DNA of 50,158 bases from the NCBI GenBank assembly GCA_001771535.1, contig MEUB01000031.1:1-50158 (forward strand). The letters are read 5' to 3'. Within the stretch, counting starts at the first letter, position 1, and each line of letters opens with the position of its first letter. Shown here one piece after another: positions 359-8,475 of the stretch. A program made the position numbers and the translations under genes. A model generated the notes under the pieces. It worked only from the letters and a program-made list of their open reading frames with translations. It was not told the DNA's origin and did not search any database. This DNA comes from a candidate division WOR-1 bacterium RIFOXYB2_FULL_37_13 (GTDB lineage Bacteria; Margulisbacteria; WOR-1; XYC2-FULL-46-14; XYC2-FULL-37-10).

Positions 359-1672
359 ATGAAACTAGCAGTCATCGGCACAGGTTATGTTGGTCTCGTA
401 ACAGGAGCATGCTTTGCAAATCTTGGAAACGATGTAATTTGTGTTGATAAAGACTTAAAACGCCTTGAGACTTTATCAAAAGGTGATGTCCCTTTCTATG
501 AGCCGGGACTTCCCGAGCTTGTTTCAAAAAACCATAAGGCAAAAAGACTTGTTTTTAGCCATGATATTTCATCTGCTGTCCTAAATTCTGAAGTTATTTT
601 TATAGCTGTCGGAACTCCACCCAAATCAAATGGTCAAGCAGATATTTCTGCTGTTATTTCTGTAGCTCAAAGCATTGCAAAAACTTTGAAGTCAAAAAAG
701 AAAAATAAATCAGGGAAATTTAAAGTCATTGTAAATAAAAGTACTGTTCCTGTTGGAATGGGTGACATTGTTACTAAAATTTTAATTGAAAATAAAATAT
801 CTGAAAAAGATTTTTCTGTTGTATCAAACCCTGAATTTTTAAGAGAAGGTTCCGCAATCTCTGACTTTATGAACCCTGATAGGATTGTAGTTGGGGCTTC
901 TAATAACCGTGCTTTCAATTTGATAACAGAGCTTTATAGACCGCTCAATGCTCATGTAATATTTACGTCAGTTAAAAGCGCCGAGCTTATAAAATATGCT
1001 TCAAACGCATTTCTTGCCACGAAAATATCTTTTATAAACGAGATTGCAAATATATGCGAAAGGGTAGGCTCTGATGTTTTGGAAGTTGCAAATGCAATGG
1101 GACTTGATAAGCGCATAGGCAGGCAGTTTCTTAATGCTGGAATTGGGTATGGTGGAAGTTGTTTTCCAAAAGATGTTCTAGCATTAATGCATTTAGCCCG
1201 TGAACAAGGGTATGATCCTCAAATATTGTCTTCAGTTACCGAAGTTAATGATTTTCAATCTGATGCTTTTGTGGGCAAAATTTTGAAGGAATTAAAAAAT
1301 TTAAGAGGGAAACGCATTTCCGTTTTAGGTTTATCATTTAAGCCTGATACGGATGATTTAAGAGAAGCTCCATCACTTAAAGTAATTAATTCTTTGCTTA
1401 AGAAAGGAGCCCAGATAACAGTTTATGATCCGGCTGTTTCTTCTAATTCTAAAAAAGAATTGAAAGAACTATCTTTTGCTGACGGAGTTTATGAAGCAAT
1501 AGACGGGGCTGATGCCATAATTGTTGTTACCGAATGGGCGGAATTTAAAGAAATTGATTTTGATAGAGCAAAAAAACTTGTAAAAGGCAGGATCATTTTT
1601 GATGGCAGAAATATCTATGATCCAAAAAGGGTAAGGGAGTCAGGGTTTAAGTATATAGGTGTTGGGCGGTAG
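359..1672 (+). CDS. ugd: UDP-glucose 6-dehydrogenase
   Basis: This enzyme oxidises UDP-glucose twice with NAD+ to give UDP-glucuronate, a cytosolic precursor of surface polysaccharide. The N-terminal Rossmann motif GTGYVG is at residues 7-12. The catalytic cysteine is C268 in GGSCFPKD, and the helix containing K212 and N216 (IKYASNAFLATK) matches the family active site. The C-terminal UDP-binding domain includes LSFKPDTDDLREAPS. At 437 residues it has the usual length. The ATG has GGAGG six bases upstream. A UDP-glucuronate decarboxylase gene lies about 0.7 kb downstream, so the pair should supply UDP-xylose, with a toxin-antitoxin pair wedged between them. Confidence 0.96.
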   Translation: MKLAVIGTGYVGLVTGACFANLGNDVICVDKDLKRLETLSKGDVPFYEPGLPELVSKNHKAKRLVFSHDISSAVLNSEVIFIAVGTPPKSNGQADISAVISVAQSIAKTLKSKKKNKSGKFKVIVNKSTVPVGMGDIVTKILIENKISEKDFSVVSNPEFLREGSAISDFMNPDRIVVGASNNRAFNLITELYRPLNAHVIFTSVKSAELIKYASNAFLATKISFINEIANICERVGSDVLEVANAMGLDKRIGRQFLNAGIGYGGSCFPKDVLALMHLAREQGYDPQILSSVTEVNDFQSDAFVGKILKELKNLRGKRISVLGLSFKPDTDDLREAPSLKVINSLLKKGAQITVYDPAVSSNSKKELKELSFADGVYEAIDGADAIIVVTEWAEFKEIDFDRAKKLVKGRIIFDGRNIYDPKRVRESGFKYIGVGR

Positions 1673-1967: not shown

Positions 1968-2362
1968 GCGTTCTTGATGCGTCAGTTGTATTGAAGTGGT
2001 TTGTGCAAGAAAATGGCAGTGATAAATCACGGGAAATTCAAAATAAATATCTTGCCGGGTCAATTAAAATTATAGTTCCTGATTTACTCCTTTACGAAAT
2101 TTCAAATGTTTTAAGATATAACAAATCTTTTAGCAAAAAAGAGATAGATGAAATTTTAACCTCTCTTTCAGAGATGGGGATTGAAGTGTTTCCGATAAAT
2201 TATAATTTAATAAAGGATGCGGTAAATCTTGCATATAAGTTTGATATTACTGTATATGATGCGTGTTATGTGGCATTGGCATTAACACTTTCTACAAATC
2301 TTATTACTGCGGATGCAAAACTGCTTAAAAAAGCCGATATTCCTGAAATTGAATTATTATGA
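1964..2362 (+). CDS. PIN-domain ribonuclease toxin (VapC-like)
   Basis: PIN-domain toxins are Mg2+-dependent ribonucleases that cleave tRNA or rRNA when their antitoxin is lost. From a TTG start (132 residues) the acidic residues fall where expected: D5 in [11 protein letters not shown]45 in LYEISN, D99 in [10 protein letters not shown] and D117 in ITADAKL. The TTG has GGAGGG eight bases upstream and overlaps the antitoxin stop. An in-frame ATG five codons earlier lies inside that Shine-Dalgarno and is less likely. The last codons overlap the ATG of the next sugar gene by four bases, so the toxin is embedded in the polysaccharide transcript. Confidence 0.85.
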
Positions 2363-3291
2363 AAATTTTAATCACAGGCGGCGCCGGTTTTATCGCCTCT
2401 CATTTAACTGATCTTTTGTTGCAAGAAGGCCATTTTGTTATTTGTGTTGACAATTTAATTACCGGCTCACTCCATAATATAAAACATCATGAAGGGAATA
2501 AAAGTTTTAAGTTTATAGAACATGATATCTCGTCTCATTTAGATTATAAAGATAAACTTGATTTTGTCCTTCATTTAGCATCTCCCGCAAGTCCTGTCGA
2601 TTATATGGAACTGCCTATTGAAACGCTTGAGGTCGGGTCTCTTGGCACTTTTAACGCTTTGGAGCTTGCCAAAGAAAAGGGAGCGAAATTCTTATTTGCA
2701 TCGACATCTGAAATCTATGGAGATCCTCTGGTTTCTCCTCAAAAAGAAGAATACTTCGGGAATGTCAATTCAATAGGACCTCGAAGTGTTTACGATGAAG
2801 CAAAGCGTTTTGCAGAAGCAACAACCATGGCTTATCGGCGACATTACGGATTGGATACGAGGATTATCAGGATATTTAACACCTATGGACCAAGAATGCG
2901 CAAAAATGACGGGAGAGTTGTCCCTAATTTTATCAATCAGGCTTTAAATGGCAATCCGTTCACAATTTATGGAGATGGCAGGCAGACGAGAAGTTTTTGT
3001 TATGTTTCAGATTTAGTTGATGGAATTTATCGAGCGATGAAATCTGACATTCATACCCCGATTAATCTTGGGAATCCTAATGAGTTTACAATGATTGAAC
3101 TTGCGGAAGTGGTCTCTCGTATTGTTGCGATTCCTCTTGAAATGATTTCAAAACCTCTTCCGGAAGATGATCCCAAGCAACGAAGACCTGATATTTCAAA
3201 AGCAAAAAAAGAATTAGGATGGGAGCCTGTTGTTCAATTAGAGGAAGGCATTTTAAAAACTGTGAAATGGTTTAAGGATAACGGCAAATAA
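2359..3291 (+). CDS. UDP-glucuronate decarboxylase (UDP-xylose synthase)
   Basis: A short-chain dehydrogenase/reductase with the NAD-binding motif GGAGFIAS starting at residue 7, a catalytic T116/Y145/K149 set ([10 protein letters not shown] and [12 protein letters not shown]) and the family signatures [10 protein letters not shown] and [11 protein letters not shown]. These are characteristic of UDP-glucuronate decarboxylases, which make UDP-xylose from UDP-glucuronate using bound NAD+. The 310-residue length is typical of soluble bacterial forms. The ATG overlaps the PIN gene stop (ATGA). With Ugd it makes a two-step UDP-xylose route for the polysaccharide cluster. A related dTDP- or UDP-sugar epimerase activity is a less likely alternative. 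Confidence 0.88.
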
Positions 3292-3306
3292 TAAAGTTTT
3301 TGATAC

Positions 3307-3335
3307 TTGACAATATGTACGTAAAAGCGTACAAT
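3307..3335 (+). promoter_or_regulatory. Promoter with embedded operator for the RelBE-like pair
   Basis: TTGACA at 3307-3312 and TACAAT at 3330-3335 are separated by 17 bases, a near-consensus sigma-70 promoter. A perfect inverted repeat TGTACG-TAAAAG-CGTACA at 3316-3333 fills the spacer and overlaps the -10 box. This is the classic place for autorepression by a toxin-antitoxin complex. The repressor identity is inferred from the adjacent Phd/YefM-like gene. Confidence 0.7.
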
Positions 3336-3362
3336 TAGGGATATTATAGGGGGTCTATTTAC

Positions 3363-3641
3363 ATGAAAAACAATAGCGATACATTGTCTGTTACTAAAGC
3401 AAGAGAAGCGTTGCCTTCTTTGGTTCAAAATATAACAAAGTTACACAGCCATTATTTTATTACAAAAAGGGGCAGGGTTGACGCAGTTATAATGGGCATT
3501 GAAGAATTTAACGGATGGGAGGAGACTTTGGACATAATATCCAATAAGGCGGAGCTGAAAACATTGAGAAGCGCTTTGAGTGACTTGAGAAATGGCAGAG
3601 TGAAATCCTTTAAGTCTGTGTTTGGTGAGGATTTGCAATAA
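3363..3641 (+). CDS. Phd/YefM-family antitoxin
   Basis: A 92-residue protein. Its N-terminal VTKAREALPSLVQNI, then HYFITKRGRVDAVIMGIEEFNGWEETLDI, match the Phd/YefM (RelB-type) DNA-binding antitoxin fold: a small sheet-helix dimer domain followed by a toxin-neutralising tail. It is preceded by a run of G residues as ribosome-binding site and by its own strong promoter with an operator-like palindrome. The RelE-like toxin follows six bases downstream. The complex should repress its own promoter. Confidence 0.85.
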   Translation: MKNNSDTLSVTKAREALPSLVQNITKLHSHYFITKRGRVDAVIMGIEEFNGWEETLDIISNKAELKTLRSALSDLRNGRVKSFKSVFGEDLQ

Positions 3642-3647
3642 AAAGCA

Positions 3648-3902
3648 ATGTATAAAGTTTTTCTAACAAATGAAGCCCAAAAAAATATAAAGAAACTGCC
3701 TAAAAATATTGTTGAAAATGTAAAAAATGTTGCAAAAGAAATAGCAAAATCCCCTTATGATTGCGCCAAATCATTAAGAGGAATATTAAAAGGTCAATAT
3801 TCTTATAGAATTGGAGCTTATAGATTGATATATATTATTGCAAGGGAAGAAAAATCTGTTTACATTTTATACATTAGGCATAGAAAAGATGTTTACAGGT
3901 GA
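3648..3902 (+). CDS. RelE/ParE-family toxin
   Basis: An 84-residue basic protein, MYKVFLTNEAQKNIKKLP at the start and SYRIGAYRLIYIIAREEKSVYILYIRHRKDVYR at the end, matching the RelE/ParE fold. The arginines of YRIGAYRLIY and the final RHRKDVY are where RelE-type mRNA interferases bind RNA. The sequence alone does not separate a ribosome-dependent RelE nuclease from a gyrase-targeting ParE. The RHRKDVYR ending favours RelE. It forms an operon with the upstream antitoxin. Confidence 0.85.
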   Translation: MYKVFLTNEAQKNIKKLPKNIVENVKNVAKEIAKSPYDCAKSLRGILKGQYSYRIGAYRLIYIIAREEKSVYILYIRHRKDVYR

Positions 3903-3934
3903 AATGATGCAGACAAAATCGTGGAATATAATAC

Positions 3935-5803
3935 ATGAATAAAAAAGAATTAGAATTTATCTTGCAGGAAGGGGAAGGCTTTAAGCTGGAGTTTAAAGAG
4001 GGGCTTTCTGGTATAGATAAGGATATAGTTGCTTTTGCCAATGCTAATGGTGGGAGAATATTTTTAGGAATTGATGATTCAAAAAAAATCAAAGGAATAA
4101 AGCTTACAAATAAATTAAAGTCTGAAATAATTGATGTTGCTAGACATTGTGATCCATCTATTAATAATTTAAAAATATCTTATTTTGATAACATCGTTGT
4201 TATTGATGTTTCTGCATCTTCAAACAAACCGCATAAATGCTCTTCTGGGTTTTATCTAAGGAAAGATGCGACTTCTCAAAAGATGAGCAGAGATGAAATT
4301 GTTGATTTTGTTTATGATCAAGGAATGCGACAGTTTGATTCTCAAAGCTGTGCCAAATTTAATATGAAAGATTTGGATAAAAATTTTATAAAAGAATATC
4401 TTTCAAGAAGTGAGATTAGCGCAAAAACCTCCATAGAAAATATTCTTTTTAATTTGGGAGTTTATGGGAATAATAAAATAAATAATGCTGGAGTTCTGTT
4501 TTTTTCAAAGGCGCCTAAAAAATATTTTATAAGTGCTTATATTACATGTGCGAGATATTTGGGATTTGAAAAAGTCAATGTTTTGGATAGAGCTGATTTT
4601 GAAGGAAATGTTGTCTATCAAATTGAAGAGGCTTTGAAATTCATTAGAAGGAATACTAGGCTTTCTTACAAGATAAAAGCGCTTGAGAGAGAAGAAATTC
4701 CAGAATATCCAATGGAGGCTTTAAGGGAAGCTATTGTAAATGCCGTAATGCATAGAAATTATTTTGAAAGAGGGGCAAATGTACAGATTGATATTTTTGA
4801 CGATAGGGTTACTATAACCAATGTTGGAGCTTTGATTAAGCCGTTAACTCCTCAAAATCTGGGGGAAATCTCTGTTAGAAGGAACCCTTTAATTGCAGAT
4901 TTGTTTCATCGGATAAATTATGTAGAAAAAATGGGTACAGGACTTAAAAGAATTAAAGATGAAGCAAAAAAACACAACACAAAAGTAAAGGTTGAAGCCG
5001 ATGGCTTTTTTATTGTCACATTTCAAAATAAAAAGCCTTTTGGCGTAGTAAATGTCCCTGTAAATGTCCCTGTAAATGTCCCTGTAAATGTCCCTGTAAA
5101 TGATAGGCAGAAATGGTTTTTAAATTTACTTTTCAAAAATAACAAGGGTATTATTATGAATTTTGCCAAGAATTTTCCTGATATTACAATAAAAACAATA
5201 AAGAGAGACATTGCCTATCTTACAAAAAACAAAATCATTGAATTTGTCGGGGCTCCTAAAACTGGATATTATGCTCTAATGAATGTCCCTGTAAATGTCC
5301 CTGTAAAAGCTCCTCCAAGCGCAATTTTCCTAGATCGAGATGGTGTTATAAATAGAAAAATAGATAATGATTATGTCAAAAAATGGGAGGAGTTTGAGTT
5401 TTTACCTTATGCAATTGCGGCTATTAAGATTTTAAACGAAAAGAAGATCCCTGTTTATATAATAACCAATCAATCAGGAGTCGGTCGCGGTAAAATGACA
5501 GAAAACGATTTGAAAGTTGTCCACGATAAAATGATTTCCGAATTTAAAAGAGCCGGAGTTTATGTTGATGATATTTTTGTATGTACGCACAAGCCCGAAG
5601 ATAAATGCGATTGCAGAAAACCAAAGCCAGGGCTTTTGCTTCAAGCTAAAGCAAAATATCCTCAGATTGATTTTAAAAATTCTTGGGTTATTGGCGATTC
5701 GCAGATTGATATGGAGGCGGGGAAGGCTGTGGGGTGTAGGACTTATTTGCTTGGCAAGAAAAAGAATCTATTTAACGTCATGAAAAATATTTTAAAAAAC
5801 TGA
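3935..5803 (+). CDS. AlbA_2/RecG-like ATPase regulator fused to a GmhB-type HAD phosphatase
   Basis: One uninterrupted 622-residue frame carries two normally separate proteins. Residues 13-125 are an AlbA_2 (Schlafen-like) domain (FKLEFKEG, AFANANGGRIFLGIDD). Residues 255-365 resemble the RecG C-terminal/GHKL ATPase domain (ALREAIVNAVMHRNY, KMGTGLKRI). Residues 372-389 are a VPVN tandem repeat, 390-449 a winged helix and 450-457 a second short VPVN repeat. Residues 462-622 are a complete HAD phosphatase of the GmhB/histidinol-phosphatase type: D467/D469 in FLDRDG, T511 in ITNQSG, a zinc loop C550-H552-C558-C560, and D588/D592 in GDSQIDME. The C-terminal half would remove the 7-phosphate of heptose bisphosphate. 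The joining of regulator and enzyme is unusual. A TATAAT two bases before the ATG looks coincidental. Confidence 0.85.
   Translation: MNKKELEFILQEGEGFKLEFKEGLSGIDKDIVAFANANGGRIFLGIDDSKKIKGIKLTNKLKSEIIDVARHCDPSINNLKISYFDNIVVIDVSASSNKPHKCSSGFYLRKDATSQKMSRDEIVDFVYDQGMRQFDSQSCAKFNMKDLDKNFIKEYLSRSEISAKTSIENILFNLGVYGNNKINNAGVLFFSKAPKKYFISAYITCARYLGFEKVNVLDRADFEGNVVYQIEEALKFIRRNTRLSYKIKALEREEIPEYPMEALREAIVNAVMHRNYFERGANVQIDIFDDRVTITNVGALIKPLTPQNLGEISVRRNPLIADLFHRINYVEKMGTGLKRIKDEAKKHNTKVKVEADGFFIVTFQNKKPFGVVNVPVNVPVNVPVNVPVNDRQKWFLNLLFKNNKGIIMNFAKNFPDITIKTIKRDIAYLTKNKIIEFVGAPKTGYYALMNVPVNVPVKAPPSAIFLDRDGVINRKIDNDYVKKWEEFEFLPYAIAAIKILNEKKIPVYIITNQSGVGRGKMTENDLKVVHDKMISEFKRAGVYVDDIFVCTHKPEDKCDCRKPKPGLLLQAKAKYPQIDFKNSWVIGDSQIDMEAGKAVGCRTYLLGKKKNLFNVMKNILKN
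5048..5102 (+). repeat. Tandem 12-base repeat encoding VPVN
   Basis: Four exact copies of GTAAATGTCCCT plus a 7-base partial copy, in frame within the AlbA-HAD fusion gene. They encode repeated NVPV and probably form a flexible linker between the ATPase-like domain and the winged helix. The copies are identical at the DNA level, so copy number may change by slippage without breaking the frame. Confidence 0.95.
5282..5307 (+). repeat. Second block of the same 12-base repeat
   Basis: AATGTCCCT, one full GTAAATGTCCCT and a trailing GTAAA recur about 180 bases after the first block, exactly at the junction between the winged helix and the HAD phosphatase. The two blocks bracket the winged-helix segment like a cassette. 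Confidence 0.9.
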
Positions 5804-7281: not shown

Positions 7282-8475
7282 ATGGAAAATATAAAGAAAG
7301 TATTTTATCGATCCGGAATATTAGCTGTTTTAAGGGTTATATATCATTTTTTTAGAGTAACAAATTTGATGTTTAGCCATTATGGAGCTGTATTACATTT
7401 TATATTAAAGAAAAGGGGTATTATTGGTTTATTTAGATATCTTAGGGTTAGATATTTGGTAAAAGAGGTGGAAGGAGGAATTTTTGATCCCTTATATCGT
7501 ATATATCCAAACTTAGCCCCTTATCCTCGTTGGATAGAATTGGAACCTACAACTATTTGTGATAAGAAATGCACCATTTGTGAACATACTTATTGGAAAG
7601 AAAAACCACAAAGTATGCCTTTTGAAAAATTCAAACAGATTATTGATAATTTCCCAAAATTGATATGGTGCGGGCCTACAGGCCAAGGATCATCATTTTT
7701 AAATAAAGATTTCTTAAAAATGATAAGACATCTTAAATCTAAAAATGTTTTTGTGGATTTTGTGGACACTTTTGAAAGTATTGAAGGTGATATTGCCAAT
7801 GAATTGATCGAGCTTGGAGTAGAAAGAATCTGGACGTCTTTTGATGGAGCAAACAAAGAAACTTATGAAAAAGTAAAAGTAGGTTGTAGCTTTGAAAAGG
7901 TTGTAAAAAATATAAAAGAGTTTATAAGACTTAAAGAACAAAAAGGATCTCCCTTGCCTGAAATTTGTTTTAGCTATGTTATTACTAAACTAAATGTTGA
8001 TCAAATTATTTCTTTTTTAGAATTAGTTCATTCTTTTAGTGATAAGCATTGTCATGTAGAACTTAGAGGATTAATGGAATTTGATAACATAAAAGACCTT
8101 ATTGCAGAAGTACCAAAAGATTTAATGCAAAAAGTTGAAAAAAAAGCCAAAGACTTAAATCTCTTTATTGAATGGGTTCATCCTAGTCATGTGTCAAGAC
8201 CTCCTATTGCGAATTGTTCTGCATGGACAGTTCCGTATTTTCTTGTAGATGGAACAGTTCAACCTTGTTGTTCTGTTCTTCAGGCTTGTGAGAGAAACTT
8301 TGTGCGCGATCATAAGTTAGGGAATATTTTCGAGAAACCTTTCAAGGGAATATGGTATTCAGAAAAGTATAAAAAATTTAGGAATCGCGTCCCACGTTTC
8401 TATGGGGATATCCCAGAACCTTGTAATTTATGCAGAACCTTTGATTTGTGTTTGAGGGAGCGTGGAAATGGATAA
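7282..8475 (+). CDS. Radical SAM/SPASM protein of the polysaccharide cluster
   Basis: The radical SAM cluster motif is C93-x3-C97-x2-C100 (ICDKKCTIC) in LEPTTICDKKC. The C-terminal half has a SPASM-type auxiliary cluster pattern: C312, C329/C330, C336 and C381-x2-C384-x5-C390 with the typical LGNIFEKPFKGIW. Family members oxidise peptides or modify sugars, and the substrate here is unknown. The first about 60 residues are hydrophobic/basic and may bind the membrane. I chose the second of two adjacent ATGs because AGGAGG is five bases upstream of it. The next gene, a Gfo/Idh oxidoreductase, overlaps by eight bases, so the two may act on the same sugar. Confidence 0.85.
   Translation: MENIKKVFYRSGILAVLRVIYHFFRVTNLMFSHYGAVLHFILKKRGIIGLFRYLRVRYLVKEVEGGIFDPLYRIYPNLAPYPRWIELEPTTICDKKCTICEHTYWKEKPQSMPFEKFKQIIDNFPKLIWCGPTGQGSSFLNKDFLKMIRHLKSKNVFVDFVDTFESIEGDIANELIELGVERIWTSFDGANKETYEKVKVGCSFEKVVKNIKEFIRLKEQKGSPLPEICFSYVITKLNVDQIISFLELVHSFSDKHCHVELRGLMEFDNIKDLIAEVPKDLMQKVEKKAKDLNLFIEWVHPSHVSRPPIANCSAWTVPYFLVDGTVQPCCSVLQACERNFVRDHKLGNIFEKPFKGIWYSEKYKKFRNRVPRFYGDIPEPCNLCRTFDLCLRERGNG

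Follow-up and report, generated by a model that had tools for sequence, protein, structure and literature searches.

The DNA analysed here, hereafter the window, is a stretch of 50,158 nucleotides from a candidate division WOR-1 bacterium (RIFOXYB2_FULL_37_13, contig MEUB01000031.1). Within a polysaccharide and nucleotide-sugar cluster, its forward strand carries a single reading frame of 622 amino acids (aa), which runs from the ATG at 3935 to the TGA at 5803 with no internal stop codon and encodes, in this order, an AlbA_2 domain, a HATPase_c_4 domain, a winged helix and a GmhB-type HAD phosphatase. An earlier note, made from the letters of the sequence, had described regulator and phosphatase as both complete and in one open frame inside a polysaccharide cluster, with intact HAD and zinc-loop residues and an in-frame ATG at 5279, and all of these observations were borne out by the Pfam and NCBIfam domains, the neighbouring genes and the sequence motifs given below. 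The features of the locus are as follows.

359..1672, + strand: ugd, UDP-glucose 6-dehydrogenase type (TIGR03026, 4.3e-145; 90.6% identical to G001, same order there)
2359..3291, + strand: uxs-like NAD-dependent epimerase/dehydratase, left flank of the insertion (86.8% and 80.3% identical in G001 and G002)
3292..5317, no strand assigned: inserted block, consisting of the Phd/ParE pair and the regulator part of the fused frame, in place of gmhB codons 1-5 (flank comparison; absent from G001 and G002)
3363..3641, + strand: Phd/YefM-like antitoxin ORF, 92 aa (reading frame, position and sequence; family by inspection only)
3648..3902, + strand: ParE/RelE-type toxin, 84 aa (PF05016, 9.8e-12)
3935..5803, + strand: fused ORF, 622 aa (reading frame)
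3983..4288, + strand: SLFN_AlbA_2 domain, aa 17-118 (PF04326, 2.7e-16)
4772..4984, + strand: HATPase_c_4 / RecG C-terminal-like domain, aa 280-350 (PF13749, 8.6e-20; fold match 3lmm, 1.5e-21)
5048..5102, + strand: hinge repeat array 1, 4.6 perfect copies of GTAAATGTCCCT, encoding (VPVN)n (pLDDT below 50 at aa 371-384)
5102..5278, + strand: winged helix-turn-helix domain, aa ~390-448 (AlphaFold secondary structure; C-termini of relatives alignable)
5279..5281, + strand: in-frame ATG, candidate separate phosphatase start (sequence; weak Shine-Dalgarno pairing, -3.1 kcal/mol)
5282..5307, + strand: junction repeat array 2, repeating 26 bp of the hinge array where the two parts join (pLDDT below 50 at aa 450-458)
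5318..5803, + strand: gmhB body, HAD-IIIA heptose 1,7-bisphosphate 7-phosphatase type, covering the sister gene from its codon 6 through the stop (identity to the stand-alone GmhB of G001 and G002)

Both N-terminal domains scored above the Pfam cut-offs (PF04326, 60.6 bits versus 25.3; PF13749, 71 bits versus 26), and aa 1-448 share domain order and fold with the COG2865 regulators, which combine SLFN_AlbA_2, HATPase_c_4 and a winged helix (3LMM, DIP2311); 3LMM was also the PDB match of this part. The winged helix was modelled at about aa 390-448, with the protein continuing past it, and gave no Pfam HTH match. The HAD part (aa 462-610) is of the GmhB/histidinol-phosphatase type (NF006506, 1.5e-47; TIGR01656, 2.3e-44, above cut-off), and its HAD-IIIA fold was recognized by TIGR01662 and TIGR01656, both above cut-off. 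Since it fell below the curated equivalog and subfamily cut-offs for GmhB (NF006506, 161.5 versus 178; TIGR00213, 118.6 versus 149.6), we call it GmhB-type. Its PDB matches were GmhB structures (4pnh, 3l8h, 2gmw) and also HisB-N structures. The motifs FLDRDGVIN, TNQSG, the CTH...CDC zinc loop, RKPKPG and GDSQID were read directly from the sequence and include the DxD, Thr/Ser, Lys and GDxxxD signatures of the HAD-IIIA fold, so that no catalytic or zinc-loop residue is missing. In most rows of alignment A1 the first HAD strand is misplaced, and residue counts there were not drawn from it. The AlphaFold model of the fusion, based on 48 sequences, had a mean pLDDT of 91 and just two stretches below 50, aa 371-384 and 450-458, which are precisely the peptides of the two 12-bp repeat arrays, with the winged helix between them. 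The model places putative flexible linkers at these arrays, and with a pTM of 0.60 domain placement and inter-domain packing are not firmly fixed.

In G001 and G002, two genomes from the family of the window bacterium, ugd, uxs and gmhB are consecutive, with nothing between uxs and gmhB. Identity to the window for the three genes in this order is 90.6, 86.8 and 69% in G001 and 80.3, 80.3 and 60% in G002, and in both gmhB starts inside the end of uxs with an 11-bp overlap (ATGGCAGATAA and ATGACAAATAG). In the window, the uxs stop codon (3289-3291) is followed by the Phd-like antitoxin ORF, the ParE toxin and the regulator, and homology to gmhB restarts at codon 6 (AGC, 5318). Sister operons without the block, together with the restart of homology at codon 6, indicate that about 2.0 kb was inserted at the uxs/gmhB overlap and that five gmhB codons including the start were lost. 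Judged from this comparison of sequences, gmhB is clearly the resident gene, and the toxin-antitoxin pair and the regulator are later arrivals; the best relatives of the regulator lie elsewhere (59-60% to a Nanoarchaeota MAG). The empty site supports the earlier suggestion of a recent fusion and turns round its polarity, in which the enzyme had hijacked the expression of the regulator, because gmhB already stood in an operon, overlapping uxs, when the other genes came.

A second toxin-antitoxin pair, VapBC-like, was observed between ugd and uxs (1673-2362; PIN toxin at 1949-2362 and a small ORF before it), two genes that overlap directly by 4 bp in G001. The PIN gene's stop codon and the uxs start share 4 bp (ATGA), which suggests that this insertion kept translational coupling too. 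Assignment of the locus to a defence system was rejected, as PADLOC gave just partial matches to pAgo-associated models.

Both linkers of the fused protein are built from the perfect 12-bp repeat AATGTCCCTGTA (5048-5102 and 5282-5307), whose period preserves the reading frame at any copy number. Positions 5282-5307 match 26 bases of the hinge array about 230 bp upstream without a difference, and the DNA pattern of the repeat peptide had no other occurrence in the window genome or across the 74 phylum genomes. Each relative examined for its hinge array has a single one, with no further copy after the winged helix. Since the second array was found only in the window gene among the copies examined, it presumably dates from the fusion event or close to it, and template switching from the hinge array would be the simplest route. 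Transposition with the 12-bp repeat at both boundaries was rejected, the left end having no nearby copy.

The window genome (about 97% complete) has no second GmhB-like gene, leaving the fused HAD as its sole copy. On its contig C58, gmhA (above cut-off) is adjacent to a 507-aa HldE-like kinase/adenylyltransferase with no gmhB (L082, G000:C58, 6939-8998); several order- or class-level relatives have gmhB between or beside these two, and gmhA, gmhB and hldE are side by side in L030, L033, L036, L092 and L094, of the same order or class. The HldE-like ORF is about 60-68% identical to ORFs beside gmhB in relatives. The grouping of the three genes in relatives ties the HAD type of the fusion to heptose, and gmhB appears to have moved beside uxs in this family. 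By gene content, no candidate other than the fused HAD is visible for the dephosphorylation of heptose 1,7-bisphosphate, and because this HAD is the sole GmhB of a genome that has gmhA and hldE elsewhere, it has probably kept its heptose phosphatase function. Histidinol phosphate phosphatase activity is possible as well, given that HisN is a paralogue of GmhB and that a fusion, HisNB, is known. Loss of GmhB is tolerated in some bacteria, so the enzyme may be non-essential here. The dN branch lengths, calculated for three taxa from pairwise dN, were about 0.11 for the window, 0.10 for G001 and 0.17 for G002. The window branch is similar to that of G001, indicating that the fused copy is not accelerated and shows no relaxation, and, since dS is saturated between the sisters, this comparison chiefly reflects the period preceding the insertion, an event that was possibly very recent.

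The account that we consider probable as a whole is that a mobile-looking block inserted into ugd-uxs-gmhB, was joined to gmhB in frame and now yields one polypeptide with a working GmhB. The block, made up of the Phd/ParE pair and a COG2865-type AlbA_2-ATPase-winged helix regulator gene, entered exactly at the uxs/gmhB overlap, and its entry removed the start and first five codons of gmhB, as the sister genomes show. At the seam made of the second hinge-repeat copy, the stop codon of the regulator would have been lost, letting its frame run into gmhB. The product would most likely be a single chain of a normal DNA-binding regulator, a short flexible linker and a working GmhB, with no allosteric link between them. 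Because the fused HAD is the only GmhB of the genome, selection for ADP-heptose would now also maintain the frame and the expression of the regulator.

Alternatively, the phosphatase could be made mainly as a separate protein by internal initiation at the ATG at 5279 (MNVPVNVPVKAPPSAIFLDRDG...), which stands in frame immediately after the winged helix, and the fusion would be a by-product. The earlier note had seen no ribosome-binding site for the phosphatase, and this is a weak argument against separate translation, because the best anti-Shine-Dalgarno pairing before this ATG (-3.1 kcal/mol, spacing 11) is no worse than that of the ORF's own start (-3.3 kcal/mol, spacing 8). In addition, gmhB of G001 and G002, which starts inside uxs via translational coupling, also appears to have no site of its own. 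However, most genes of the window have stronger pairing than the ATG at 5279, and the regulator and the phosphatase are not set apart by a stop codon in this frame, so that ribosomes translating the regulator also yield the fusion. Both the fusion and a separate phosphatase may be produced; a mainly separate phosphatase is unlikely. We regard it as very improbable that two separate genes were merged by an artefact of assembly or sequencing, whether through collapse of the 12-bp repeats or through a single wrong base near 5276. The 26 identical bases common to both arrays would favour a collapse, and a TAA in the +1 frame (5277-5279) overlaps the ATG, so that altering one base where the winged helix ends would make the phosphatase a gene of its own, overlapping the regulator by TAATG. 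Nevertheless, 12-bp units cannot shift the frame, the repeat is absent from the rest of the genome, and synteny with the sister genomes holds on either side of the block, which makes a chimeric contig unlikely, since it would require two joins.

No second protein with this domain order was found in the phylum, of which 57 + 17 genomes were searched, in a scan of GTDB species with short peptide patterns, which reaches close relatives only, or in IMG/VR, phages and plasmids, where no phage or plasmid record covered 80% of the query. The fusion is thus rare within the phylum, and the wider searches suggest the same beyond it; its component domains are ordinary, and their combination was not found elsewhere within the searches made. 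Other candidates were rejected: the long open frames with HAD matches, L029/L063 (399 aa, a nucleotidyltransferase-like part followed by the HAD) and L064 (386 aa), have no AlbA_2 match, and in G040 gmhB and the following AlbA_2 gene (L021) are two separate genes, with gmhB first. The L063 protein (2952-4151, - strand, in G025) is itself a GmhB-type HAD phosphatase fused to the C-terminal side of a nucleotidyltransferase-like part.

Compared with the known systems, the COG2865 relatives examined end a few residues past the winged helix or, in L091, after a second winged helix, and none runs into a phosphatase as the window protein does. The HAD part shares the HAD-IIIA fold, the zinc loop and the catalytic residues with GmhB (2GMW, 3L8H, 4PNH), whose operon context matches in relatives, but it differs in having no ancestral start codon, in an N-terminus formed by the regulator and the repeat linker, and in its score of 161.5 against the strict cut-off of 178. 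The HisNB protein of gamma-proteobacteria, in which the gmhB paralogue HisN is fused in frame to an operon neighbour (PMC1963479, PMC8305728), unites two enzymes of one pathway in many genomes, whereas the partner in the window is an unrelated regulator and one genome is known. The earlier note had set relatives that always encode two separate genes against its reading; the relatives are indeed of this kind, which argues against a conserved two-domain system and leaves the physical fusion in this genome standing. The locus is well documented as a one-off, lineage-specific gene fusion, and it is probably no new type of sugar sensor. The sugar-phosphate-responsive regulator proposed in that note, in which binding or hydrolysis of heptose bisphosphate in the HAD would switch the regulator's DNA binding and give feedback on the polysaccharide cluster, accords with enzyme and regulator lying in one chain inside a sugar cluster, but is hardly credible given a lineage-specific architecture that recurred in none of the phylum genomes, GTDB species, phages or plasmids searched, a HAD that is the only GmhB copy, catalytically intact and no faster evolving than that of G001, and a model with flexible linkers and no confident docking.

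A tandem peptide repeat with a period of 4 or 8 residues lies between the ATPase and the winged helix in 14 of 32 other AlbA_2 relatives, which were not selected by repeat; many COG2865 proteins share with the window protein the period of 4 residues at the hinge. At the DNA level, the units are 97-100% identical with a period of 12 (24 in one) in the twelve relatives checked, including the repeat-selected phage contig L069, and the unit varies among lineages (GEKV, TEKV, NTTP, TTSK, VPVN and others). These near-perfect repeats occupy a fixed hinge at about aa 360-410 (L002, L005, L009, L010, L011, L018, L019, L024, L025, L037, L041 and others), and no paper describing hinge repeats of AlbA_2 proteins was found in the literature. 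The phage-contig protein of L069, about 28% identical to the window protein, has at 7814-7857 a 12-bp hinge unit, GTCCCTGTAAAT, that is identical to the window unit as a rotation; it was found by searching with the window repeat peptide, and the shared unit therefore counts for little.

Several further AlbA_2 loci were observed. The window genome (1.8 Mb) has six more AlbA_2-type matches, on contigs C46, C27, C70, C16 and C11. A Nanoarchaeota MAG (L037:2092-8503) carries three AlbA_2 regulator genes in 6.4 kb, two of them near-identical in the winged-helix C-terminus with diverged N-termini, as if the C-termini had been swapped. In an E. coli IncC plasmid (L086:1417-3984), genes for a type I restriction S subunit and an anticodon nuclease come after the AlbA_2 gene, which places it in a defence-island setting. 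L091 (885-2780) is an open AlbA_2 frame of 632 aa with a winged helix, an SHSAPVT-type repeat and the second winged helix.

In the account favoured here, the locus is a clean natural case in which insertion at a point of translational coupling has joined a housekeeping enzyme to a regulator, and the ancestral operon kept in two sister genomes makes the states before and after comparable. The repeat leading to a second winged helix in L091 suggests a wider idea, which we think decidedly unlikely, that the hinge arrays are frame-safe recombination seams at which mobile-associated COG2865 genes swap C-terminal domains and can capture the frame of a host enzyme, so that their own loss becomes costly. 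The window gene, with its second hinge array lying right at the seam, would be such a capture in progress. If true, the seam idea would explain why perfect 12-bp repeats stand at one fixed place in many Schlafen-type bacterial regulators, and would provide a mechanism for domain swapping and for the retention of mobile genes through the capture of host genes.
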